Shown here: one piece after another, positions 7,136-63,745 of the stretch
Numbering within the stretch: the first letter of the stretch is position 1
Layout of the letters: each line of letters starts with the position of its first letter
From: Lineus longissimus
Taxonomy: Eukaryota > Nemertea > Pilidiophora > Heteronemertea > Lineidae
Assembly (NCBI RefSeq): GCF_910592395.1
Contig: NC_088309.1
Location: 1,118,501-1,182,500, forward strand
Reading direction: 5' to 3'
Length of the DNA: 64,000 nt
Position numbers and translations under genes: made by a program
Notes under the pieces: generated by a model
What the model saw: only the letters and a program-made list of their open reading frames with translations
Database searches by the model: none
What the model was told of the DNA's origin: nothing

Positions 7136-33427
<26,292 letters not shown>

Positions 33428-37743: not shown

Positions 37744-39120
37744 TCACACACTTCCGCCGAGATCAGTCTGAAGACGTGACAGCGTGTCTTGCCAACTCGG
37801 CAATGCTCCTGCCAAAGACATGGACGGCAACGCCTGGGTCTGAACTAGAGGCGTAAAGAAATTGTCCTGGAAACTGGGCGCATTAGGCATGGCTTGACCA
37901 CTTGGGATATGTGTTTGCTGCATGGATGGTATCGTGGTCTGATGAACTGACGAAATTGAGGTCTGGTGAACGGACGGAATTGAGGTCTGGTAAACGGATG
38001 GATTAGTATTGTGATGAACGGATTGAATGGATGTCTGGTGAACGGACGGAATGGAGGTCTGGTGAATGGACGGAATTGAGGTCTGGTGAACGGACGGAAT
38101 GGAGTTCTGGTAGACGGAAGGATTAGCATTGTGGTGTAACGGGGAAAAGTTCATCTGGTGTCCCGATTGGACCGCCGTCTGCTGCTGTATATTCTGATGC
38201 GTGGACGACACAGGACTCTGGTGAATTGAGGAGAGATTGTTCTGATAGCCAGTGTTCACCAATGGCTCCGTGTTCGCAAACACCGAAGAGACGTTAGTTA
38301 TGTTCGGAAGAGGTTTAGTGTTACTTAACTGTTGGTAGTATCTCTGTAGCTGCTCCTCCCGCGACAGGACATTTTCCACACCAAAGATATTGCTCAGCGC
38401 TGGAGTTGAAGCGTAGGTTGACATCATGGGGACGTAGCTGTTGTAGGACGAGTAGTAACTCGTGTCCTGCGGCGGTGCGTTCGTACCGTCTTGAAACCTC
38501 CGCTGCAGCTCGTCACACTTCCGTACCCGGCGCCTGGCGCGGCGTCTCCTGAAATCACCTTTGCCGAAGTCTTCCGTGTTCGCCGGATGAATTGACCAGT
38601 AGTTTCCCTTGCCGTTTTCGCTGCGACCGTTTTTGATGAAGCATTCATTCAGTGATAGATTGTGACGGATGCTGTTGCGCCAGCTCTTGTCCTTTCCCTG
38701 GTAGTAAGGAAACTTGTCCGTGATCCACTGGTAGATCTCGGAAAGCAGCATCCTCTTCTGAGGCAGACTCTGGATGGCCATCGAGATGAGAGCAATGTAG
38801 GAGAGGCTGGGCTTTGTCGACGGGTCCTTGTTGGCCTCAGAGTTCAGCAACACCTGGGCGACATCCTCGCCTGAGGAGTCCGAATCAGGGGCGCTGTCGT
38901 TACGGGCAGGTATTGCCGCACTCTCAGGAAGGCGACTGACGTTTTCCAACTTAACGTAAGACTGCGTTGCAACGTTCACTTGTGGTAGGAGGACGTCTGC
39001 ATGGCTGGTTGAAAACTGCACCAAGTCGAAAGTTGAGTCTGGTTTCAAAGAAAGGTAGTCGTCGGTGATGGTGTTGACAGGGTGCGTCAGGCCACAGGAA
39101 CTAGTGACGTAGAGCGACAT
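37744..39120 (-). CDS. FoxQ2-like forkhead transcription factor, divergent member
   Basis: A 458-residue intronless frame. The forkhead domain lies at about residues 100-195: KPSLSYIALISMAI, the recognition helix WRNSIRHNLSLNECFIKNGR, GNYWSIHP, and the FoxQ2-like basic wing GDFRRRRARRRVRK. FoxQ2 proteins are DNA-binding regulators of anterior/apical patterning in invertebrate larvae. Unlike the two genes to its right it lacks the N-terminal FSIEYL-type EH1 motif. Its C-terminal third is a tandem of about ten 8-residue units of the type SIPSVHQT. The true ATG is at 39118-39120. A TATA-like element lies about 115 bases upstream. Family placement rests on the wing region and neighbours; another FoxQ-class assignment is possible. 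Confidence 0.82.
   Translation of the reverse strand: MSLYVTSSCGLTHPVNTITDDYLSLKPDSTFDLVQFSTSHADVLLPQVNVATQSYVKLENVSRLPESAAIPARNDSAPDSDSSGEDVAQVLLNSEANKDPSTKPSLSYIALISMAIQSLPQKRMLLSEIYQWITDKFPYYQGKDKSWRNSIRHNLSLNECFIKNGRSENGKGNYWSIHPANTEDFGKGDFRRRRARRRVRKCDELQRRFQDGTNAPPQDTSYYSSYNSYVPMMSTYASTPALSNIFGVENVLSREEQLQRYYQQLSNTKPLPNITNVSSVFANTEPLVNTGYQNNLSSIHQSPVSSTHQNIQQQTAVQSGHQMNFSPLHHNANPSVYQNSIPSVHQTSIPSIHQTSIPSVHQTSIQSVHHNTNPSVYQTSIPSVHQTSISSVHQTTIPSMQQTHIPSGQAMPNAPSFQDNFFTPLVQTQALPSMSLAGALPSWQDTLSRLQTDLGGSV
37915..38135 (-). repeat. 24-bp coding minisatellite in the forkhead gene
   Basis: About ten imperfect copies of a 24-nt unit (plus-strand GTCTGGTGAACGGACGGAAT core) encode SIPSVHQT-like octapeptides with variants SIPSIHQT, TNPSVYQT and SISSVHQT. 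Such arrays change copy number easily, so the tail length is expected to be polymorphic. Confidence 0.75.
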
Positions 39121-39234
39121 GATGTTGATAAACTTTCCCCAATGTTGTGATATATCCTGAAGAGTTTAACGTAAGCAGGGTCGTGTTTCTGGCAATGTTG
39201 ACGAAGATCTGTGATTGTTGATGATAAACATAGC

Positions 39235-43403: not shown

Positions 43404-43501
43404 CTTTACCCGAGAAATCGAAATCATATCAATTCAGTTTACTTAGAGACAACAGCTAAACGATTATCTAATTTTCAACTTGTCGGAAAGATTTCTACAT
43501 C

Positions 43502-44377
43502 ATGCATCCTTTCAGCATTGAGTACCTAACTTCTCCTGCGGCCGGGAAAAAGATACAGCGATCATCATCACCAGCCTCTGTTGACAGCGACACTCCCAGG
43601 ACACCGTCTCCATCCAGTAGCGTCTCCTCATCAAACAAGTCTCCATCCTCCTCGCCTTACGGACACGTCGTCGACTCCTCGGTTGCAGAGGCCCTGATTT
43701 TGTTAGAGAGACACGCAGCATCCACCAGAAGCACGAAGGAGAAGACGGAAAAGCCACCGCATTCCTATATTGCCATGATCTCCATGGCCATACTCCACGC
43801 ACAAGACAAGAAGATGCTCCTCTCCGATATTTACCAATATATCATGGATAATTTCCCTTACTACAACAATCAGGACAAGGCATGGAGAAACAGCGTCCGG
43901 CACAATCTCTCCCTAAACGAGTGTTTCATCAAATGCGGCAGAGCTGACAACGGCAAAGGCAACTTTTGGGCCATCCACCCTGCATGCGTCGAGGACTTCT
44001 CCCGCGGCGACTTCAGGCGCAGACAAGCAAGGCGACGGGCTAGACGGAGCAACCATCGGGACATCGACATCGGCCAGTTTTCGGGGATGCCTGGTAACTT
44101 CAAATACAACCTCGGCTACATGCCCATGAACTGTCCTCCAGCTTTCGCCGGATACCATCCGTACTCTACTCCGATTTACGCCCAGCATCAGTACCCCATG
44201 GCATCACAGATGACATCAACACCGACGGGTTACGCGGGTGGATATACGCAAGGTATGATGTCTTCACCAGCAGGACTACCATCGCCGATGTCTTTCGGAA
44301 CAGGAGGGAATACGGCAGCGTCAGCGATGTCTTTCGTTTCAAATGGACCGGGGAATACCTCACTACCAGCGTGGTAA
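43502..44377 (+). CDS. foxQ2: FoxQ2 forkhead transcription factor, plus-strand copy
   Basis: A 291-residue intronless frame. An N-terminal EH1-like repressor motif (FSIEYLTSP, residues 4-12) is followed by a Ser/Pro-rich stretch and a forkhead domain at about residues 80-180: EKPPHSYIAMISMAI, WRNSVRHNLSLNECFIKCGR, GNFWAIHP and the basic wing GDFRRRQARRRARR. EH1 recruits Groucho/TLE corepressors, and FoxQ2 acts in the nucleus in apical/anterior ectoderm of many invertebrate larvae. The start is the only ATG fitting the EH1 motif, 99 bases after a TATA box. The gene is nearly identical to the inverted copy at 46381-47256 except for residues about 275-285 (SAMSFVSNGPGN here). Confidence 0.92.
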   Translation: MHPFSIEYLTSPAAGKKIQRSSSPASVDSDTPRTPSPSSSVSSSNKSPSSSPYGHVVDSSVAEALILLERHAASTRSTKEKTEKPPHSYIAMISMAILHAQDKKMLLSDIYQYIMDNFPYYNNQDKAWRNSVRHNLSLNECFIKCGRADNGKGNFWAIHPACVEDFSRGDFRRRQARRRARRSNHRDIDIGQFSGMPGNFKYNLGYMPMNCPPAFAGYHPYSTPIYAQHQYPMASQMTSTPTGYAGGYTQGMMSSPAGLPSPMSFGTGGNTAASAMSFVSNGPGNTSLPAW

Positions 44378-46380: not shown

Positions 46381-47256
46381 TTACCACGCCGGTAATGACG
46401 TATGCATCAATCCAGTCTGAGCGAAAGACATTGGACACGCTGCCGTATTCCCTCCTGTTCCGAAAAACATCGGCGATGGTAGTCCTGCTGGTGAAGACAT
46501 CATACCTTGCGTATATCCACCCGCGTAACCCGTCGGTGTTGATGTCATCTGTGATGTCATGGGGTACTGATGCTGGGCGTAAATCGGAGTAGAGTACGGA
46601 TGGTATCCTGCGAAAGCTGGAGGACAGTTCATGGGCATGTAGCCGAGGTTGTACTTGAAGTTACCAGACATCCCCGAAAACTGTCCGATGTCGATGTCCC
46701 GATGGTTGCTCCGTCTAGCCCGTCGCCTTGCTTGTCTGCGCCTGAAGTCGCCACGGGAGAAGTCCTCGACGCATGCAGGGTGGATGGCCCAAAAGTTGCC
46801 TTTGCCGTTGTCAGCTCTGCCGCATTTGATGAAACACTCGTTTAGGGAGAGATTGTGCCGGACGCTGTTTCTCCATGCCTTGTCCTGATTGTTGTAGTAA
46901 GGGAAATTATCCATGATATATTGGTAAATATCGGAGAGGAGCATCTTCTTGTCCTGTGCGTGGAGTATGGCCATGGAGATCATGGCAATATAGGAATGCG
47001 GTGGCTTTTCCGTCTTCTCCTTCGTGCTTCTGGTGGATGCTGCGTGTCTCTCTAACAAAATCAGGGCCTCTGCAACCGAGGAGTCGACGACGTGTCCATA
47101 AGGCGAGGAGGATGGAGACTTGGTTGATGAGGAGACGCTACTGGATGGAGATGGTGTCCTGGGAGTGTCGCTGTCAACAGAGGCTGGTGATGATGATCGA
47201 TGTATCTTTTTCCCAGCCGCAGGAGAAGTTAGGTACTCAATGCTGAAAGGATGCAT
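46381..47256 (-). CDS. foxQ2: FoxQ2 forkhead transcription factor, inverted minus-strand copy
   Basis: ATG at 47254-47256, 291 residues, same length as the plus-strand copy. The longer frame upstream has no ATG and is not used here. EH1-like FSIEYLTSP, forkhead domain and basic wing are unchanged. Over the first 265 residues I count five replacements (Q/H, N/T, P/S, A/T, S/F) and few silent changes. A short C-terminal block differs (CPMSFAQTGLMH), and TSLPAW and the stop match again. Identity starts only three bases before the ATG and ends at the stop. No strong TATA box is visible upstream. It may be a converted paralogue with its own regulation, or a retrocopy that acquired a promoter. Confidence 0.9.
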   Translation of the reverse strand: MHPFSIEYLTSPAAGKKIHRSSSPASVDSDTPRTPSPSSSVSSSTKSPSSSPYGHVVDSSVAEALILLERHAASTRSTKEKTEKPPHSYIAMISMAILHAQDKKMLLSDIYQYIMDNFPYYNNQDKAWRNSVRHNLSLNECFIKCGRADNGKGNFWAIHPACVEDFSRGDFRRRQARRRARRSNHRDIDIGQFSGMSGNFKYNLGYMPMNCPPAFAGYHPYSTPIYAQHQYPMTSQMTSTPTGYAGGYTQGMMSSPAGLPSPMFFGTGGNTAACPMSFAQTGLMHTSLPAW

Positions 47257-47586
47257 GATCAATAGTGTCTTGGAGAAGTAAAGTCGGCTGATGTTGGCTA
47301 TATGGTCAGTGCCTGAGGTTATGAGTTTCGATAGATTTTTCCTAGTTATTATACAACTAGCCAACGACTCCACGCTATCACGCCATGATAGTCACACAAG
47401 GTGGTCAGGTTTGTTTATTCCAACAAGATCGCAACTCAGCACAAACACAAAGATATCGCAATTGCAGAACAAAGCGAATGTCAACTCGTTTATTAATCTG
47501 TATTATTGTTCCTAATTCATTTTTTGGCCATGGATCGATGATTTTAACCAAGACAACGGCTTAAAATTTTAATTGCGGGCCATCAC

Positions 47587-52657: not shown

Positions 52658-55600
52658 GTAAGAACTTTCAAGTTTACATGATTATGATGTTAAAGGTACC
52701 CAGCAGTATTGTCTGTTTCTCAACTCATTCAGCTTACTAGTATGACCAGACACTAGTGGTCAGTGTAGTTACTACAGAATGGACTTTTACGTTGTATTGA
52801 CGAAGGCCTTGTCAGTCCAGGTCCAACCATCATCGCCTCAATATCATGGTAAGAACTTTCAAGTTTACGTGATTATGATGTTAAAGGTATCCAGCAGTAT
52901 TGTCTGTTTCTCAACTCATTCAGCTTACTAGTATGACCAGACACTAGTGGTCAGTGTAGTTACTACAGAATGGACTTTTACGTTGTATTGACGAAGGCCC
53001 TGTCAGTCCAGGTCCAACCATCGTTGCCTCAGTATCATGGTAAGAACCTTCAAGTTTACGTGATTATGATGTTAAAGGTACCCAGCAGTATTGTCTGTTT
53101 CTCAACTCATTCAGCTTACTAGTATGACCAGACACTAGTGGTCAGTGTAGTTACTACAGAATGGACTTTTACGTTGTATTGACGAAGGCCCAGTAACAAG
53201 GGGATGGCAAGGAGGGAATATACAATGTATCCCCAATGGGTGGCTAAAATGTGTTTTTCATACAGGCTTAGCCTTTATCAAAAGTTTAAGAAACTCGCAT
53301 CTGTTGAGGTTGTTACAAAAACACAATCTGCATTCATCAGTATTCAATCCCTGTACCCATACTGCTACTTTCACGCTTTGTTGTCTTGACCAACTGTTCT
53401 CTCCTCCAAGGAAGACATATTTATAAAGCAATCATTGTGGCCTGTTCTTCCAAAGTGTTCAGGGGGCCCACGAGTCTCTGTGTTGACTGCAGACCTGACC
53501 TGGCCACATCGTGAAGAGGAAATATCAATATGCCTGATCATGTTCTCCCCAGAAATCTAATCAATCAATTTGGCACAATGATTTTCATTCCCCATCATCC
53601 CCATGGCCTACCCCTAATCCACTTCATTGCTATGTCAGATTCAATTACTTAACAAAGTGACGTGACTTCATGATACGTGTGAACCATCACAAGGTCAAAT
53701 GTTTTCTTTCCGCGACAAAGGTATGATCTCTAGAAGCGTTACTATGACATCCATTTTCGATTCGACACAAACTGCGCTCAAACTGTGTTGGGGTTTGAGC
53801 TTTTGGTCTGGGATAGTCAAAAACACTTCTGAGAAATCCTGGCCGGATACTTGGCCCATTTTACTCATGATCTTGGAAGGTGGTGACCATGGAGATATTC
53901 GTTTATGATCGAATACTTGCTGCGTTGTCTCCAGATTATATTTCTTTAAGCAACATTGAGCGCGGTCATGAAACGGAGGGGTGATTGATGCGTATGATAC
54001 ACTGTGCATACTTAATAGTACCTTTTTGGTTGAAGTCGAAAAAAATACCCTCTGCAAAAAGGTGTGCCAGTCCCCTTTATTGATCAGCGATGGTTCTCTC
54101 CAACCTCATGATGATTCAAATGATGATAGGGTTACAAGTCTCAGTAGTTTAAACTCTGTAATTTACTGATTTGTCCATATTTTCTATTGTTGCAGCATCT
54201 GACTCATCTAACAAAAGAAAGAGGAAGCTGGGAAGAGAGTAAGTTTGACTGATCAGGGAATCTGACTTTGATATCCTCGCCATGCAGGGGAGGGCTACGA
54301 CAATTGTTGTTTGATTCTAACACACTGGCCTGGTGACAAAATATACCAAACGGTATCCTAAGAAGGCCTTTGTCACAGGATGTCAATGATTGTAATGAAG
54401 AAAGCCCGAACCTGGATTTGATCGCAGAGGTCCTTGGTGTTGCATTTCGGTCTTACTCTTCAACAAGAACAAATGCTACATCCCATATACATGGTGTACA
54501 GTACATAATGATATAAAGGGGCCAAATACATGGTTTGCGTGCAAATCATGAATTGCTACGTGTACCTGGGGAGGGCGTACAAAGCATGCCTCACACACTG
54601 TGACTGATTATCAATTAGTACGAAGCTTGGGCTATGCTCTAGAGAATGGCCAATTGTAGTCATGGCTTGGCAGCGTGCTGTGCATGTGAGATGTGATGAT
54701 GGTGAAGTTTGAAGCAAGGAGCGGATGATGTCTCATGAAACGACTTGAATTCTTATATTATATGTCTCTGTCGTTCTATTTCAGTTCTGATGATGAAGAC
54801 AGCCAAGAAGGTGTGTTTGCCCGAGATGCAGATCAATCTGATAAGGAGAGGTTTGCCAGGTAAGTTTTCGGCGTTTACCGAGTTTCTCTAGAGAGGGCAG
54901 TTCTTTGCATGAATTTATTTCGCCGATCGCCAAAACAAAGAGAAACTTTGTGTGTTTACAGCAGATATTTTCAGTATGGAGATTGAAGTAGATGTAGCAC
55001 ACAGTGCATCGGAAAACCTTGGCCTCACTTGTCATTCACTCCTTCAGGGCTGCAGGTAGAGGTTCTCCTAGTGCATCAGGTAATGCATTGTTACACTATG
55101 CATTTGAAGGCTACCTGGATGAGTCATCACTCGGTACACTCAGCTGTATGCCCAGCATTGTTAAAATTCGACCAACTGTTCAAGTACATTGTCCACTTTG
55201 GATGCTTTGAGCCTCCTACAGGAGAAAATTTAAAATGAGGTGGATCTGGATCACAATGTCCTCCTATCATATTTTGTATTTCTTCCTTTCCCTGTTAGGC
55301 AGTTCATGTTGAGTAACCAGGAAGTTTTCCTCACCTAAGTGCAGTATCATCATCCTTGTCTAGAGTTTTACGCCCCGATATTCTGATGAGGGCTATTCAA
55401 ATAAAAGATGTGTAGGCCTACTTCCTTGTCGTGTTTGATGTTCGAGCAGGTGATAATCTCAGGTGTGTTCATATGAGGCAGTTGAGTTGGTGTGTCACAT
55501 CAAAGCAGTCCAGTTGTGGAGTTTCATTAATTTCAATGATTTCGTTAATTCTTGATGGTCTTCATGTCGCGTCGTTGTAATCGTTTCCTCAGGGATAACG

Positions 55601-58600
55601 GGCAGATTCTGCCGTATTCTGTTACTCCGCCCAATCAGGACTATACATACAGTCAGAATGTGTACGAAAATAATGCGAGTAGCTCTCAGGACAAGAGAAG
55701 GTAACATGGCCTTGTATCAGCTACAGGTTTTAGCCAGCATTTGGTGAACATTTCCCTTTAGAATGGTATTTTCTCCTCAGTCCTGCAGAATCCAGATCAG
55801 CTACATTTGATTACATTTTGTCAATGTTTTGTCAAAGGGCATATTCACCTTGAGATGTTGAAATTTGACTCTCGATCCCCAAGGAATATTTTCAGTGTGT
55901 CACTCTAGATATATTCATATATGTATGTTTTGAATTTGTCAGTGTATAGTTGAACGTAGCCAATCATCAAAATTTCAAACTTTTCATCACAAAGAGTCAT
56001 TTATGAAAAATGTGAACTTTTGAGGATTGGCCAACTTGAGAGAAATATTTTCGTATTTGGTTTAGCTGAATGCTGGCACCTCTTGTTAATGTCCTGCACA
56101 TTGGGATATGCTGTATATCAGGTCTTCTCTTACAAATGTTATCATTCTACGAGATATATTGTCAGATATTGCAATGACATGTTAACACTGGTGATGCAGA
56201 ATTTATACTCTGTTGGCAAAATTGGCACTAACTCGAAACAAGATGCTAAGAAAGAGCAAAGTTGGGGGTTTGAGACCGTGGCAGAGTTACACTAGATTGT
56301 TAGTTCTTCCCGCTGAGAATTTGATGCCATGGAGAAAAGTGTCATTTGCCCAACTTCATATGTTCAAAAACCTCTCCACCCCTAAATCTCTGTACTTACT
56401 ACTCTATTTCCGGTTGCAGTCCCAAGTCACTGGAGGCTCGGTAGGTCTATTTTCATTGCTCCATTGCGGAGTTTCCTTTAACTGTGCATAATTATTCTGC
56501 ATTTTGTTATTATTTTGGCCTTTGGTTTTTCAAAATTATTGTAACTTTGAAGTTCAGTAGATACAAACCTATAGAACTACCAGTATTAAGAACTTCAATT
56601 CTCAACATTTGTTGTTGGTTCTGCAGCTCTATTTTGACAGTGGTGAATTCTATAGGTTGACTGAAAAGATGGTATTTACCTTCCTGCCTTTTGACTAAAT
56701 CTTTTGCATCTTAAAACAACATTTGGCACTTCGAATTTACTCAAACAAAAGTCATTTGCAGCCCCTATAATGTTGAGTCATGTTGGCCTTGGGACAAATA
56801 GATGCAAGTTGTGTCTTTGAAATTAAGTTAATTTGGAAATGTTTGAACATGTTACAAGATGATAGCGTGGAACCTATATGTACTTCCAATAATCTCTAGC
56901 AAGTAAAGGCTAGTGTGAGGAGTTATCTTACAGAAGTCCTTTTGTTAAGTTGGCTTTCCTTAGGGCCAGTTTTTTTTAACAGTAAAACCTTACCTCTGAA
57001 CCTGTAGAATGTTTCTAATATGTAACACCCTTGCTTGTAGGAACTCTGTTGTGCATACCATGTTTTGCAAATCAGAATGGATTGAGTTTAAATGGCTAAG
57101 GAGCTGGTGTGTGAAGCTACTGAGTTGCGAGGCTTGATTCATAAAAAACAGAACCTTCTACAGACTAGACTAGTCTGTTGTTTTCATTTCCATACAAAAC
57201 GCTTGCGTATTATAATAATGTAATCCTCTTTATGATTTCATTCCTGTTTTGATGATTCAGCAAATATTGAAAAGTCTGAGAATACAGCATATCCCAAGCA
57301 TGGTTAATTTGTAAAAATTTGGATTTCTTATTCTCTTCATGTTTTATATTGTAAGAATACTGTTTAGCGAAAACAATGCTTTTATTGAAGAGGGTATACT
57401 TTGCAAGGGTCTGTATATAATGGGGTAAGGGACTTTTGATAAATCCGGGGTCTGGATATAATGGGGTAAGGGACTTTTGATAAATCCAGGGTCTGGATAT
57501 AATGGGGTAAGGGACTTTTGATGATCCAGGGTCTGGATATAATGGGGTAAGGGACTTTTGATAAATCCAGGGTCTGGATATAATGGGGTAAGGGACTTTT
57601 GATAAATCCCTGGTAAGTTGACCTTTTCAAGGACTGTGTGACAATATCGCTAACTGCTGATGACATAAATGGCATCATGTGAAACGACCCGACAGAGGGG
57701 CCAGCAAATAATGTTACAATGACGCATTGGATCTCACAACATCTATAAACCTTGCATCCATGCAAAGTATACCATGCTCCTGTTTTCCTCTGTGAAAAGA
57801 AGGGGTGTCCCAGAAGAAGAGATTGTGTCACATCAAGTCTTCTTCCCAAAATTCATGCTTGATTTCCAAAGATTTTGCTCAAACAAGGTGAGCAGGGCAC
57901 TCACCTAGTTTGCCAGTCTGGAGACGTGTCTGATGTCAGAAATCTAAACGTCAACAGAGGATCAACCAGGGGAAGACCCAAAAACAAGACCATACTTCCA
58001 CTTCCATCTCACCTGATGTAGACTTTCTTTCCTTTAAAATGTCTTCTTCTTTTTGCTGATAGGGAGAGCCACTGTGAGATTGAACGTCGACGACGGAATA
58101 AGATGACGGCGTACTTGAACGAGCTTTGTGATATGGTGCCCACGTGCAGTACACTTGCTCGTAAGCCAGACAAACTCACAATTCTAAGAATGGCTGTGTC
58201 ACACATGAAAAACCTGCGAGGTGACTATCTCATTCCTCTAGATACAGTACGTCCCAGCAAAACGACTCAGACTTTTATGGGACGCACTGTATACTCCTCT
58301 TTCACACACTGTATTTTAACGTGCACTTTATTGTTCTTCTGTAGAGAGAGCCACTGCGAAATTGAAAAACGTCGCCGACACCGGATGAATAATTACATGA
58401 AAGAACTTTGCAGCATGGTATCGGCTGATGGGTCCCTTGGCCGAAAGCCTGACAAACTCACCATTCTCACTCAAGCAGTGGCTCATATGCAGAGTCTCAG
58501 GGGTAAAGCTGCCTATTCTACTCAGCTTGGAATTTTTGCCACTTTGTACTCAGTGTTCTCAACAGTAGTTTTAAAGAAGGACTCCCTGCCCCTCTTTGTG

Positions 58601-61600
58601 TACCAGGGACCTCCTTACTTTAGAACTATTGATGATTTGGAATGAAGTTACGGTTGAAATTTGTAATGGTGAATTAATCCTTATGCCTCGAGTATTAAAA
58701 AGTGTATTTTGAAATAATGTATTGTAAGTAAAGCACATTTTTGAAGAAAGAAATTATTTCTCAAAAAATCTGAATTTTTTGGTTCAGTGCTTGTGGAAGC
58801 AATGATAGATCCTGCCAACTGAGAAGCTGTTGAGAACACTGGTACTAGTTGTTTCCAATTGACAGACTTGGGGCAGTCTCTGTCCCACACCTCTGCTTAA
58901 AGCCCGGTCCCTATGCCCCAGCCGGGCACAGCATGCTCTCCCTGCTGTGCCAGGCCAGCCCTGAGAGATTTTCAGTATGCATACAGTCTCAGGACTTCAG
59001 ACTATCTCTGCAGTAGAAGTCACTAGTCTTGTGCCCTGCTAAAAACCTTTAGCTGTAACACTATAGGTTACTGGATTAGACTGGGGAATGAATGTAAAAC
59101 GCCATGAGACAGTACAGTTGTACAGTATATAGCTCCACACAAGAACTTATATTTCATTTACCTTTTCAATAGACTGTCACATGCACCAAGATATACATGT
59201 ACATTTGTATATAACCAGGGCTCTGATCTACCCAGCCCCCAAAAAACTGTTTCATTGTCCTTCATCCCTGCATGCTCCAAAAGACATGAACCTTTTTGTA
59301 CAGAATCTGACATAATTTCTGACAAATAGTTCCACTAGTATTCCATGTGGCAGACATGGTTGCAGGTCCCACGCTTAAATTAGCTTTCTTAATGGGCTGT
59401 TTAGATTTGGAAGTGAACCGTTTTTACACCACTTCCCTACAACTCATTTTTCAATACATTTTTCTTGTAAGATGGACCTTTTTGAAGTCTCGTTAACAAT
59501 AACATCACGGCACCAACAAAGTAGATTTCTAGCTAGATTCTGCATCATTTCATCAACCTTGTGATGTCAATCTCGTTACTTGAAAACCTTTGAAAGTTTT
59601 CTGTTTTTCTGGGAGGAAATAAATCATTCCTTGTTCATGACTAACTAATCATGACTTGCGGGTAGCGCATGACCATTTAAACTGGCAGGATGGGCCTCTT
59701 GACATTTAACCCAAATAATAAGCAAATCATGATCTGACAAATATAGAATAGCCACCTTTATTTTCCTCTTGATCTGTTGTATTTGATGCAAGTTTATTCT
59801 ATTCTAGTCAGTTGACCTCGAAATTGTTGAATCATTCATTTCGTGTTTTCGAGCAAAAACATCAACATTTCTAGTACTTTAATATGACCCTGTTAATCAC
59901 CGGTATGTATGTTCCCCAACATTAAGGTGATGAAAATGACCAACTATCAAGACAAAATAAAGACTTAGATGATGGAAGCATTACTGGAGCATTTTATATC
60001 TAGTACTAGGTAACAGATCCTGATAATAGGGGGAGTTTACAAGATAGCAGGTGCTATTCAATGGCTATGGCTCCGTTGGCTGGTTTTGGCTTGATTTTTG
60101 TCAGAAAATACACGTGAAGCACCTGAGCCAGGTTCTCATAGAAGTTCACTTTGAATTGTTCACATTTGTTCTCATTTTACGTCAAATACAGATAGAGCGA
60201 GCATCTCTGATGACTGCTATGATACAAGACATGTAGAAGTCTCACGGCCAAACACCTTTAAATCATTCTGTCCGTTCAGGAATTTTGATGTTGGAATCTT
60301 CAAGTTTGAAAAGTGAACTTCTGTGTAAACCAGCCAAAGAGTTTTGTCCATTTTTGACTCCGCCTCACCTTGTGTGGTTACTAACCTGGTGCGGTTGTTT
60401 CAGGTACTGGTAACACAGGGACTGACGGCACATACAAACCATCCTTCCTCACCGATCAAGAGCTCAAGCACCTGATTTTGGAGGTAAGTGGATGTCAAAG
60501 TAAAGATATGATACCAGACATGGGCATATCATGTATTTCAATTGGCACTTCCATTGAATGAGACCTACTCTGTGAGGCCAAGATTCTGATGACAGGGTGT
60601 GTCAGGATGAGGAAAAGATCAATCAAGATATGTGATATGTTTCAGGCAGCTGATGGTTTCCTGTTTGTCGTGCAATGTGATACCGGGCGGATCATCTATG
60701 TGTCCGACTCTGTGGTACCCGTCCTCCATCACTCACAGAACGAATGGTTCAGTCGCACCATGTACGAGATGGTTCATCAAGATGACGTGGACAAGATCAG
60801 AGAGCAGTTATCGACCGCTGAGTCGTCAAATACTGGCCGTATTCTCGACCTGAAGAGTAAGTATCACAATACATGTATGTACTAATGCATAAACCAGTTG
60901 TAACTGTAGGCAATTGCAACCTGTTAGCATCACAGATGTCAAACAACAGATTGCCACATGGGTTCCTCGCAGCAGAGACTGGTATCCCATATCTGCTGGC
61001 TGACCCGAACAAGATGAGGATAGAGGATTTTGATCTTGCTCTTCATTTCATATAAGTTGTTTCGCGGTCTGTGGTAGGAAGGTGGCAAATGGTATTCAGA
61101 TCTTGTCTATTATTGCTCACTAATAGTCCTCCATTACTTTTTCAGCTGGTACCGTTAAGAAGGAAGGTCATCAATGTAAGTACAGACTGACCAACTGTAG
61201 ATCATGAGGTGAATAATAAGCTCCCAGTTGAATTCTTGGTGTCACTTTTAATAGTCAGTCGGCATTCTATGAGTTGTTAGTGGCCCTCCAATTTATATAA
61301 AACACTTTCTTCAACTTACAACTGACAACTTACATCTGTGTGTTTTCAGCTTCGATGAGACTGTGCATGGGATCACGTCGGGGCTTCATTTGTCGTATGA
61401 AGATGGGCAATGCACACATCGATGCATTGACTGCTAATCATACTGTACGGGCGCGCCAGAGAAACACGTTAGGAACGTCTCCTGACGGACAGCAATACGC
61501 AGTCATCCATGTGACTGGTTATATTAAGAATTGGCCTCCTTCGGGTAAGAAATATGCCGGTAAGGTCATCCATGATAGTTAATTAAACCTGCAGGAACTG

Positions 61601-63745
61601 GTGGCTGTAGTGCGACTAGTGACTGATAATCTAATAGAAAATTTCATTTGAGTACTCAGTTCGGTCATTTTGACCAGCAAATATCCTTCTTCCTGTTGTT
61701 TGCTTTGCAGTCACTATAGTCGCCCTACTACAGAAGTTTCCCCTTCACAATTACTGCAGGAATGCTACTGATTGTTGTGGGAGTAGACCAGTTTTTGAGG
61801 GCTTAATTTTATGTTGTACAGTGCGTATTCCTGTTATTGTGTGTATTCTTTCGATTTATATAATGATAATGCCACTTTTCTCTAGCACATTAGGTCTGCT
61901 TCAATTCTGAAATTCAAGAAAATAAGATTCTTTATGAAATTACAAGGTTTATGATACTTTGGCGTGAACATTTTCAACTTATTAGCATTTTTGACTTGGT
62001 GATTCCAGGTGTCCAAATTGAACGTGATTCAGAAGATTCAGGTAGCCATTGCTGTCTTGTTGCTATCGGTCGCCTCCAGGTGACGAGCACCCCCAACACC
62101 AGTGACCTGGGCTCCTCCTCCCCGAATGAATTCATCACCAGACATAACCAGGAAGGGAAATTCACGTTTGTTGATCAGAGGTAAGTTTGATGTTGGTTTA
62201 TTTGAAATGTTTATATCAAACCAGGAAGCTTCTGACTTCCATTCACAAATTAGACGCTCTTCCACAATACACCTCCAACCCCTGTATAGGGGATATTTCA
62301 ATATCATTTGTCTTTTTTTCAGAGTGACAAATCTCCTGGGGTATCAACCACAAGAACTTCTCGGTCATCTTAACACAGACTTTGTTCATCCTGATGACCT
62401 GTCATTGATGAAAGAAACATTCCAAGATGGTAGGTTAAGACACATAGGCCTATAGAAGTTCCTCACGTGACCTGGTACATCACGTGAAATCGCACTGCAG
62501 CCATATCGGCCATCAAAATAATGAGTGACGTCACAACACCAACATAACCCGCAGGAGATGATGTCAAAACCTCATGATGGGTTAGTCTGACATCGAGCTT
62601 GCCAGTTCTTGAGCCAACCACGCCGATGATTTGCTGTGTAAGTTGCTTGTACCTCTGTTAATGGTGAAGATGGCAACCAGCACAGTCACTCATCCTGCTA
62701 GCTGTCAGCAAGGCATCAAGTCAGTAAGTCATTCCAAGCTGTACATGTCAATTGAAGTTTCTCCATTTGTCTTTCAGTCATAGCTAAGAAAGGACAAGTA
62801 GTGACGATTGTCTACCGTTTCCAGCCAAAGATAAAGAATCCTCATGATCCCTATGTTTACCTTAGGACGAGTAGCTTTAGCTTCCAGAATCCATACACTG
62901 ATGACATAGAGTATATAGTGTGCACCAATTCATTAAACAAGTAAGTCAATTCAGTCGCAAATACACATACTTATGTGACCTGTCACAAGAAAACATACTT
63001 CTTGGAGAGATTTGCCATTTCTACTGGTTACCTGCACCAATGAAAACAAAGATAAATTAAAATCGCTTATCAGGGTCATTGGTAAAATCTGCAAAAATGA
63101 AGTGCCTGCAAAAGTTTCGTGGTTAAATACTTCGTTTGTGTTACTGCTCACCTCTTAATTGTGAACATTGACTTTCCAGAAGCAGTAGTCAACAAGGTGT
63201 GATTGAGCATGGGCCTGAAGCTCATTCCTTGGGTGGTCAGTTCCCGACGGCCCGCACACTCGGCACTGATGCTACTGCTGACCCGAGATACGCCGAGATG
63301 TATCGATCAGCCATGAACAGGGGCCCGGTGGTCACACAGAGTGAGTACATGCCATTTTACCATCCAACTTTTTTTAGCACTTTTCACTGATCTGGGTCTG
63401 TACCAAAGTGCTTCACAACAACTGTCACTGATACAGGTCTCAAAAAAGGTAATCTGAGGTACTAGGCTTTCATTTCAGCGCTCACCTGTGAAAGGACTGT
63501 GAGGCAGCTAGACTGGGGTTGAACCCATGACCCGTGGATTGGAGATGATTTTGATTCTGTGTCATAAAACGATGAATAATGATAAATTTTCAGGCCAGCA
63601 AGTAGCATACAACTACCCAAGGGGAAAGTACCAGTCAGCTAATGTCCCAGCGTCTACGGGCACCGTCTTATCAAATATGATGACAAACAGGAATCCAAGT
63701 CCTGGGAACAATCCTTACCCTCAGAGCTCTTACCCTCAACAACAG
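52555..63745 (+). CDS. ARNT: ARNT (HIF-1beta/Tango) bHLH-PAS transcription factor, 3' end outside window
   Basis: Exons with matching phases: 52555-52657, 54196-54238, 54785-54859, optional 55593-55700, then either 58063-58220 or 58345-58502, and 60404-60483, 60646-60856, 61146-61175, 61350-61544, 62009-62180, 62323-62429, 62778-62940, 63180-63340, 63594-63745. The protein runs from a Ser-rich start through [13 protein letters not shown] and DKERFAR to the bHLH, PAS-A, PAS-B and a Gln/Ser/Pro-rich tail. Landmarks include [70 protein letters not shown] and EYIVCTN, distinguishing it from BMAL/Cycle. ARNT dimerises in the nucleus with HIF, AhR, Sim and Trachealess-type partners and binds half an E-box or response element. 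The start at [13 protein letters not shown] is the first ATG of that exon. Confidence 0.92.
52658..53192 (+). repeat. 191-bp tandem repeat carrying copies of the ARNT N-terminal exon
   Basis: Units at 52741-52931 and 52932-53122 plus a partial one to 53192. Each full unit holds ATGGACTTTTACGTTG..., an open frame ([18 protein letters not shown], then PQYHG) and the intact donor CATG|gtaaga at 52848/52849 or 53039/53040 in the same phase as the first exon. The frame is kept in both copies with only a few changes (PSSP versus PSLP). Acceptors before them are weak and a TGA lies upstream in frame, so they would work as alternative first exons or not at all. Confidence 0.75.
54196..54859 (+). CDS. 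ARNT: ARNT exons with basic and acidic N-terminal stretches
   Basis: Exon 54196-54238 (43 nt) encodes [14 protein letters not shown], a likely nuclear localisation signal. Exon 54785-54859 (75 nt) encodes [24 protein letters not shown], the acidic linker that precedes the basic region in ARNT proteins (compare DDEQ...DKERFAR in vertebrates). Both have canonical AG and GTAAGT sites and end in phase 2. Confidence 0.85.
55593..55700 (+). CDS. ARNT: ARNT in-frame cassette exon upstream of the bHLH
   Basis: TTTCCTCAG precedes 108 open nucleotides ending AGAAG|gtaaca, phase 2 at both ends. Inclusion inserts 36 residues rich in Asn, Gln, Tyr and Ser ([15 protein letters not shown]... SSSQDKRR) between DKERFAR and ESHCEIE. 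The frame, phases and codon character fit a real alternative exon. Vertebrate ARNT also has a small alternative exon just before its bHLH, though of different sequence. Confidence 0.6.
57408..57612. repeat. 41-bp minisatellite, five copies
   Basis: The unit GTCTGGATATAATGGGGTAA then GGGACTTTTGATAAATCCAG repeats five times with 1-3 changes per copy, and the third copy lacks three bases. It lies about 450 bases before the first bHLH exon. Confidence 0.85.
58063..58220 (+). CDS. ARNT: ARNT bHLH exon A (canonical)
   Basis: 158 nt, acceptor TTTGCTGATAG, donor CGAG|gtgact, entering in phase 2 and leaving in phase 1. It encodes the basic region [15 protein letters not shown], helix 1, the loop [12 protein letters not shown] and helix 2 [16 protein letters not shown], a near copy of ARNT/Tango. 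The DNA-contacting His, Glu and Arg at positions 5, 9 and 13 of the basic region are all present. Confidence 0.93.
58242..58292 (+). promoter_or_regulatory. RNA hairpin in the intron between the two bHLH exons
   Basis: ATACAGTACGTCCCA (58242-58256) pairs with TGGGACGCACTGTAT (58278-58292), 14 of 15 positions, with one A-C mismatch and a 21-nt loop. The intron is only 124 nt and the hairpin starts 21 nt after the exon A donor. Such structures are known to enforce exclusive choice in other tandem-exon genes; here the role is inferred. Confidence 0.6.
58345..58502 (+). CDS. ARNT: ARNT bHLH exon B (alternative, tandem duplicate)
   Basis: 158 nt, acceptor TTCTTCTGTAG, donor AGGG|gtaaag, with phases identical to exon A. 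It encodes [20 protein letters not shown], then [18 protein letters not shown] and [16 protein letters not shown]. About 35 of 54 residues match exon A, with no length change. His5, Glu9 and Arg13 are kept, so the half-site preference is likely unchanged. The differences fall at the start of helix 1, in the loop (PTCSTLA to SADGSLG) and on helix 2 (RM to TQ), suggesting altered dimerisation or partner choice. Open frame and splice sites argue that it is used. Confidence 0.87.
58503..60403. other. ARNT intron after the bHLH exons
   Basis: 1.9 kb with no exon recognised. No third bHLH copy was found on either strand. Confidence 0.5.
60404..61544 (+). CDS. ARNT: ARNT exons encoding the bHLH-PAS linker and PAS-A
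   Basis: Exons 60404-60483, 60646-60856, 61146-61175 (30 nt) and 61350-61544. They read [20 protein letters not shown], then [46 protein letters not shown] and [18 protein letters not shown] through [15 protein letters not shown] mediates dimer formation with partner proteins. The first three lines of PAS-A are as conserved as in fly Tango. No alternative copies of these exons were seen. Confidence 0.9.
62009..62940 (+). CDS. ARNT: ARNT exons encoding PAS-B
   Basis: Exons 62009-62180, 62323-62429 and 62778-62940. Landmarks are [59 protein letters not shown] and [21 protein letters not shown] binds coactivators and the partner's PAS-B. Relative to other ARNTs the segment [20 protein letters not shown] has the usual length. 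Confidence 0.9.
63180..63745 (+). CDS. ARNT: ARNT C-terminal exons, gene continues past the window
   Basis: Exons 63180-63340 and 63594-63745 encode a low-complexity Ser/Pro/Gln/Asn tail ([15 protein letters not shown], then [27 protein letters not shown]). In ARNT this region leads into the transactivation domain. The last exon ends CAACAG|gtaatt in phase 0, so at least one more exon lies beyond 64000. Confidence 0.85.

Follow-up and report, generated by a model that had tools for sequence, protein, structure and literature searches.

We find that the ARNT gene of the heteronemertean Lineus longissimus contains a real, selected tandem duplicate of the exon that encodes its basic helix-loop-helix (bHLH) domain. 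ARNT is the common dimerisation subunit for HIF, AHR, SIM, TRH, and NPAS4. The two bHLH exons, A and B, lie side by side in the window (the whole 64,000-nucleotide stretch of DNA that was analysed), and their reading frame strongly suggests, at the level of sequence, that A and B are used exclusively of one another. We consider it probable that the ARNT bHLH exon was tandemly duplicated long ago and that the copies now serve as alternative, mutually exclusive cassettes, with B altering partner choice or affinity. A hub protein may exist in two interchangeable forms in a ribbon worm.

The region from 54196 to 63745 on the forward strand is an ARNT gene, in agreement with an earlier sequence-only reading of this DNA. 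We assembled 15 exon candidates, all with AG/GT borders, and the spliced 515-residue product containing exon A matches P0001, the RefSeq “aryl hydrocarbon receptor nuclear translocator homolog isoform X3” of L. longissimus, with 99% identity along the entire query. The gene extends past the window edge, and the C-terminal remainder is present in P0001. All exons lie on the forward strand. On the 5' side of the bHLH are an exon at 54196-54238 (splice borders and frame; in P0001) and the exon directly preceding the bHLH exons, 54785-54859 (ending ...SDKERFA R), which was assigned from its borders and frame and has the donor CAG/GTAAGT. A 108-nt candidate cassette exon at 55593-55700, in frame and identified from borders and open frame only, is absent from P0001, and a 21-nt microexon at 56420-56440 (SPKSLEA), just 5' of the bHLH, is included in isoform X3. 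The common 3' exon, 60404-60483 (GTGNTGTDG...; borders and frame, in P0001), is followed by the PAS and later exons, which were placed by assembly and by P0001 (60646-60856, 61146-61175, 61350-61544, 62009-62180, 62323-62429, 62778-62940, 63180-63340, and 63594-63745). P0001 contains exon A and the 56420-56440 microexon and splices exon A straight to 60404; the exon A junctions are implied by this RefSeq protein alone. Small insertions at the microexon point are also seen in several other ARNTs (for example, P0037, P0054, P0107, P0115, and P0154), and since they recur at one point, the position just before the bHLH appears to be a recurrent splicing spot.

Exon A (58063-58220), assigned from borders, frame, and ARNT match and present in P0001, encodes the canonical ARNT bHLH, and exon B (58345-58502), assigned from borders, frame, Pfam, and homology, encodes a divergent second bHLH. 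The sequence-only reading had placed both exons at these coordinates with a length of 158 nt each, entering in phase 2, leaving in phase 1, and encoding complete bHLH domains that share about 35 of 54 residues; our analysis bears out each of these points as well as AG/GT borders for both exons, with the identity at 35 of 54 residues, or at 34 of 53 if only complete residues are counted and the shared final Gly is set aside. At the nucleotide level the exons are identical at 99 of 158 positions. A tblastn search with A as query recovers B at E = 2.2e-21, whereas the next matches in the window have E of at least 2.8, so that no third copy of the bHLH exon is found in the 64 kb by this search. 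Duplicated intron flanks around A and B were sought and none were found. The exons adjoin, are homologous and of equal length, and have the same phase, as is expected of a tandem pair.

The flanking exons limit which combinations of the pair keep the frame. A transcript model with the flanking ARNT exons and just one of the pair, whichever it is, reads through 515 residues. Inclusion of both leads to a stop after 105 residues and omission of both to a stop after 41, each counted from the first assembled exon. The pair is therefore tandem, phase-matched, and frame-exclusive, as had been claimed, with joint inclusion and joint skipping both non-productive. Each transcript would take one exon, A or B, and transcripts with both or neither would be frameshifted and presumably subject to mRNA decay.

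The A-B intron (58221-58344; 124 nt) carries no stop in the reading frame that the two exons share, according to the ORF listing, and a continuous open frame spans A, the intron, and B (58022-58645, forward strand). The chance of such an open intron is about 4% (intron letters shuffled, times one third for the frame). One alternative is that the product is a tandem bHLH protein made by retention of this intron, with no exclusive swap. The unbroken ORF would fit this, as would the donor scores: the B donor, at 4.7, is at the bottom of the 15 donors scored and the A donor, at 7.3, ranks 9th of 15, above six others (the 54859 donor is at the top with 12.8). However, A and B each have complete splice sites, P0001 joins A directly to 60404, and retention would turn an intronic hairpin into coding sequence, and we regard a retained intron as very unlikely. 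The low B donor score may instead fit a regulated exon, although a weak B donor beside an unremarkable A donor also counts against the exclusive-cassette reading.

The hairpin, detected by inverted-repeat analysis at 58242-58292 on the forward strand, has two 15-nt arms with 14 of 15 positions paired and a 21-nt loop. Its inner 12-nt inverted ends, CAGTRCGTCCCA, are located at 58245-58256 and 58278-58289 and are each flanked by TA. Arms of this length were found in none of 1000 shuffles and in none of 90 windows drawn from nine other introns of this ARNT gene, and the predicted fold of the whole A-B intron is marginal (z of -1.75; 9 of 200 shuffles were equally or more stable). No second copy of the hairpin was found within the 64-kb window. 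We take its TA-bordered, inverted-end form to resemble a small MITE; the hairpin could be a regulatory element or a MITE remnant. Competing RNA structures are described in the available text of PMC9013439 as a known route to exclusive exon choice.

A second known route is steric interference, for which a limit of 50 nt between donor and branch point is used. The distance from the A donor to two branch-point-like matches before B is 84 and 99 nt, which leaves room for ordinary A-B splicing and counts against exclusivity. With the hairpin looped out these distances would become 33 and 48 nt, below that limit. Three further branch-point-like matches lie near the donor, within the hairpin, and 14 nt from the acceptor. 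Ten other pairs of inverted repeats occur near exons A and B. The intron after exon B contains a perfect 15-nt inverted repeat (58551-58565 and 58827-58841, with 261 nt between the arms), and in the intron 5' of exon A a 41-nt unit is repeated five times in tandem with 95% matches (57406-57609).

The pattern of substitution between A and B demonstrates that, since the duplication, purifying selection has maintained B as protein-coding sequence. The two exons differ at 15, 10, and 34 sites in codon positions 1, 2, and 3 (25 of 59 differences in positions 1 and 2). A dN/dS check of exon B, which the sequence-only reading had proposed, gave a dN of 0.25 by NG86, where dS is undefined, or 0.22 by maximum likelihood, where dS is 25; synonymous change between A and B is saturated. 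Two controls placed all of the change on B. In one, with 59 differences and 20,000 runs, at most 30 residues remained identical and 82% of the runs acquired a stop; in the other, which is weaker at short divergence, at t = 0.3, 380 of 3000 runs stayed open with at least 35 identities, none of them with identical nucleotides as few as observed. Because these controls load all change onto B, they cannot alone exclude a neutral B on a short branch, and the decisive model therefore lets A evolve synonymously only and B neutrally at the same rate (10 divergence levels, 4000 runs for each). A match required an open B with no more than 25 differences at codon positions 1 and 2 and 34 or more at position 3; 0 of 40,000 runs reproduced the A-B pattern (0 of 4000 at every divergence level), from which it follows that B was selected as a coding exon after the duplication. 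Chance similarity and neutral drift as origins of exon B are ruled out by the tblastn match together with the simulations.

Selection in the past would also be compatible with a dead exon, once functional and now never spliced in. The weak B donor fits such an exon, and no transcript or protein containing B is present among the protein matches listed. Nevertheless, B retains an intact frame, its acceptor and donor, and all three residues that read DNA despite saturated synonymous change, and a neutral B is excluded by the simulation. We consider a dead exon quite unlikely, with a very recent loss of B splicing possible.

The ARNT bHLH against which B must be judged is nearly frozen in our comparison set. 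For comparison we fetched 240 proteins and kept 178 rows with a full bHLH and at least 28 identities to A (66 distinct, four of them BMAL/cycle), leaving out 62 proteins as truncated or without a bHLH. Exon A is an ordinary ARNT bHLH, matching P0001 at 54 of 54 residues; among the other 119 proteins of the best 120 of 3585 matches, 98 match it at 47-52 of 54 residues and 19 at 42-46, and 2 are truncated. Exon B differs from A at 19 positions, and at 11 of these its residue occurs in none of the 178 rows. Four of the changed columns, Lys14, Pro27, Cys29, and Arg43, are otherwise invariant in the 178 rows. By our division of the domain, two changes fall in the basic region (Arg9Lys and Asn13His), seven in helix 1 (including Pro27), five in the loop, and five in helix 2. 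B nonetheless scores as a bHLH, with 49.7 bits for Pfam HLH (cut-off 20.7) compared to 54.4 for A, and the best solved-structure match of both exons is ARNT (E = 3.7e-26 for A and 1e-14 for B).

The changes spare the base-reading residues. As the sequence-only reading had noted, the DNA-reading His/Glu/Arg is preserved in B as His4, Glu8, and Arg12. These align to His94, Glu98, and Arg102 of ARNT, residues that correspond to base-contacting residues of Max according to the available text of PMC2568859. The hydrophobic core presumably comprises Met15, residue 19, Leu22, Val26, Ile41, Leu42, Ala45, Met49, and Leu52, and all of these positions remain hydrophobic in B. Given that the reading head and core are intact and the outer faces are new, altered dimerisation or affinity is favoured over loss of function. 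From sequence, we infer that exon A would yield standard ARNT and that exon B would yield an ARNT still able to fold and to read the E-box half-site through His4, Glu8, and Arg12. Because helix 1, the loop, and helix 2 would present a changed surface, such an ARNT would differ in the partners it chooses or in its dimer/DNA affinity, while its PAS domains would stay unchanged.

The same substitutions raise the alternative that B encodes an attenuated or dominant-negative bHLH. B is without Pro27, Cys29, Arg43, and Lys50, and the loss of any of these might weaken its function. An ARNT-B of this kind would hold partners through PAS and dimerise or bind DNA poorly, damping HIF, AHR, SIM, or TRH. 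Changes at positions invariant in the 178 rows and the replacement of Met44 by Gln are in line with attenuation, as is the fact that the PAS exons are common to both forms. However, B keeps the base-reading residues and a complete HLH, features that would be unnecessary in a form that only inhibits. We judge an attenuated B unlikely, and being compatible with exclusive splicing, its odds overlap with those of the partner or affinity switch that we prefer.

A different question is where B came from. Exon shuffling from a different bHLH-PAS gene (BMAL/cycle or, with lower probability, NCOA), rather than duplication of ARNT A, would account for Lys9 and Asn16 of B, each of which occurs in just 4 of the 178 rows; the four BMAL/cycle rows carry both. 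It would also fit a phmmer score of 53.6 bits for BMAL1 versus 56.5 for ARNT with B as query, and the result for the Pfam NCOA bHLH model, whose cut-off of 27 B barely passes at 27.4 and A fails at 20.5. On the other hand, B retains the RKPDKLTIL and RESHCEIE of spiralian ARNT, and placing it within BMAL costs 8.9 log units (p-AU of 0.08, not formally rejected). We consider shuffling highly improbable and take the passing of the NCOA cut-off as a sign of B's divergence.

Among the 240 proteins listed, our searches identified no B-like bHLH. In the search with the 515-residue ARNT-A product, no bHLH among the best 120 of 3585 matches is closer to B than to A; in 118 of these the bHLH starts at its usual position, and the remaining pair, P0099 and P0114, begin within helix 1 with canonical sequence. 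With a short query built around B, the best 120 of 236 matches include 97 that share 28 or more identities with A; none of these 97 is closer to B. A search with exon B by itself gave 8 candidates, none significant, an odd result given that ARNT shares words with B and one that carries no weight. The protein database is clustered at 90% identity and the P0001 cluster has 8 members; any Lineus B isoform would sit behind P0001 and could be hidden inside its cluster. The most B-like of the 240 proteins is P0186, with 38 of 54 residues.

P0186 is one of four proteins, with P0040, P0151, and P0049, that have a milder variant bHLH (xKMA-YV...PAC...RLA-AHM). P0040 is RefSeq isoform X2 of Lingula anatina and P0151 is a partial protein of Capitella teleta; among the matches listed, Owenia, Tubulanus, and molluscs have the canonical type. 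Like B, this variant is a second, diverged spiralian ARNT bHLH, but it is much less diverged than Lineus B. In a bHLH tree of 33 hand-picked rows, trees that force either the Lingula or the Capitella variant to join Owenia are rejected (p-AU of 0.008 and 0.002). In a PAS tree of 27 hand-picked proteins, by comparison, the variant-bearing proteins are not united and Lingula falls with canonical Owenia (support 87); Capitella is a fragment in this tree, placed with a support of 8, and a union of the variant-bearing proteins is not rejected (p-AU of 0.23 and 0.30). The discordance between the bHLH and PAS trees is the pattern expected from alternative exons, and exon-level segregation of the Lingula/Capitella variant is favoured, not proved, by these sequence comparisons. 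We also considered a gene-level paralogue as the source of the variant, which the tree conflict, read with these union values, disfavours.

In the maximum likelihood bHLH tree, Lineus B is placed within the variant clade (SH-aLRT 99.1, bootstrap 83), but the alternative tree with B beside Lineus A is only 1.2 log units worse and is not rejected (p-AU of 0.45). In a parametric test of the two placements, a difference as large as the observed one arose in 7 of 60 null runs and a smaller one in 5 of 60 alternative runs. Because Lineus B sits on a long branch, attraction may contribute to the variant grouping. We raise tentatively the possibility that spiralian ARNT has had two alternative bHLH exons since before the brachiopod/annelid/nemertean split, a conserved exon and a faster-evolving one that would have given rise to both Lineus B and the Lingula/Capitella “KMA-YV / PAC / RLA-AHM” form. 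If true, a bHLH-PAS hub of hypoxia, xenobiotic, and developmental responses would be splice-switched across much of Lophotrochozoa, where vertebrate-style reasoning from a single fixed ARNT would not apply.

The Lineus gene is a bHLH-PAS hub in a nemertean, unlike TCF3/E2A, an E protein without PAS domains. TCF3 still offers the nearest working analogue of the A/B pair, with swapped bHLH exons: its alternative exons 18A and 18B (E12/E47) encode bHLH domains that differ slightly and bind DNA differently, as described in the available parts of PMC12585103. E12/E47 has been shown by RNA and protein, whereas the Lineus switch is predicted from sequence. If exclusive use of A and B is true, one splicing choice could retune all ARNT-dependent pathways at once, as E12/E47 does for E proteins. 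Human ARNT itself is alternatively spliced, and isoforms 1 and 3 differ by N-terminal exon 5, whose splicing affects DNA binding and adds 15 residues (PMC4905433, available text). The Lineus cassette candidates before the bHLH resemble this N-terminal splicing; human exon 5 adds residues and leaves the bHLH in place, whereas Lineus B would replace it. The geometry of A and B is that of the human exclusive exon clusters of Hatje et al. 2017, which, in the portion of that paper available, are neighbours of similar length and sequence in the same frame, with lengths not divisible by three in 60% of clusters (PMC5740500); those clusters, however, were validated by splice-junction reads. ARNT is not named in the available main text of that paper (PMC5740500). 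An amphioxus bHLH-PAS survey that in part covers the partner role of ARNT shows isoforms of Hif-alpha and, in its available text, does not mention alternative splicing (PMC4066832). The genome note for Lineus makes no mention of RNA-seq. The sequence-only reading knew of no ARNT with duplicated bHLH exons, and a search of open-licence literature, which is no proof of absence, likewise showed none in ARNT or any other bHLH-PAS gene among the papers listed.

Elsewhere in the window, two single-exon forkhead frames in opposite orientation, 43472-44377 (+) and 46381-47391 (-), are 96.7% identical over 880 nt. The first matches Pfam Forkhead, and both are FoxQ2-like by our reading. A third forkhead-like frame at 37744-39165 (-) was recognised by eye. 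Lastly, long collagen-like reading frames with repeats occupy 9030-26400 (+).
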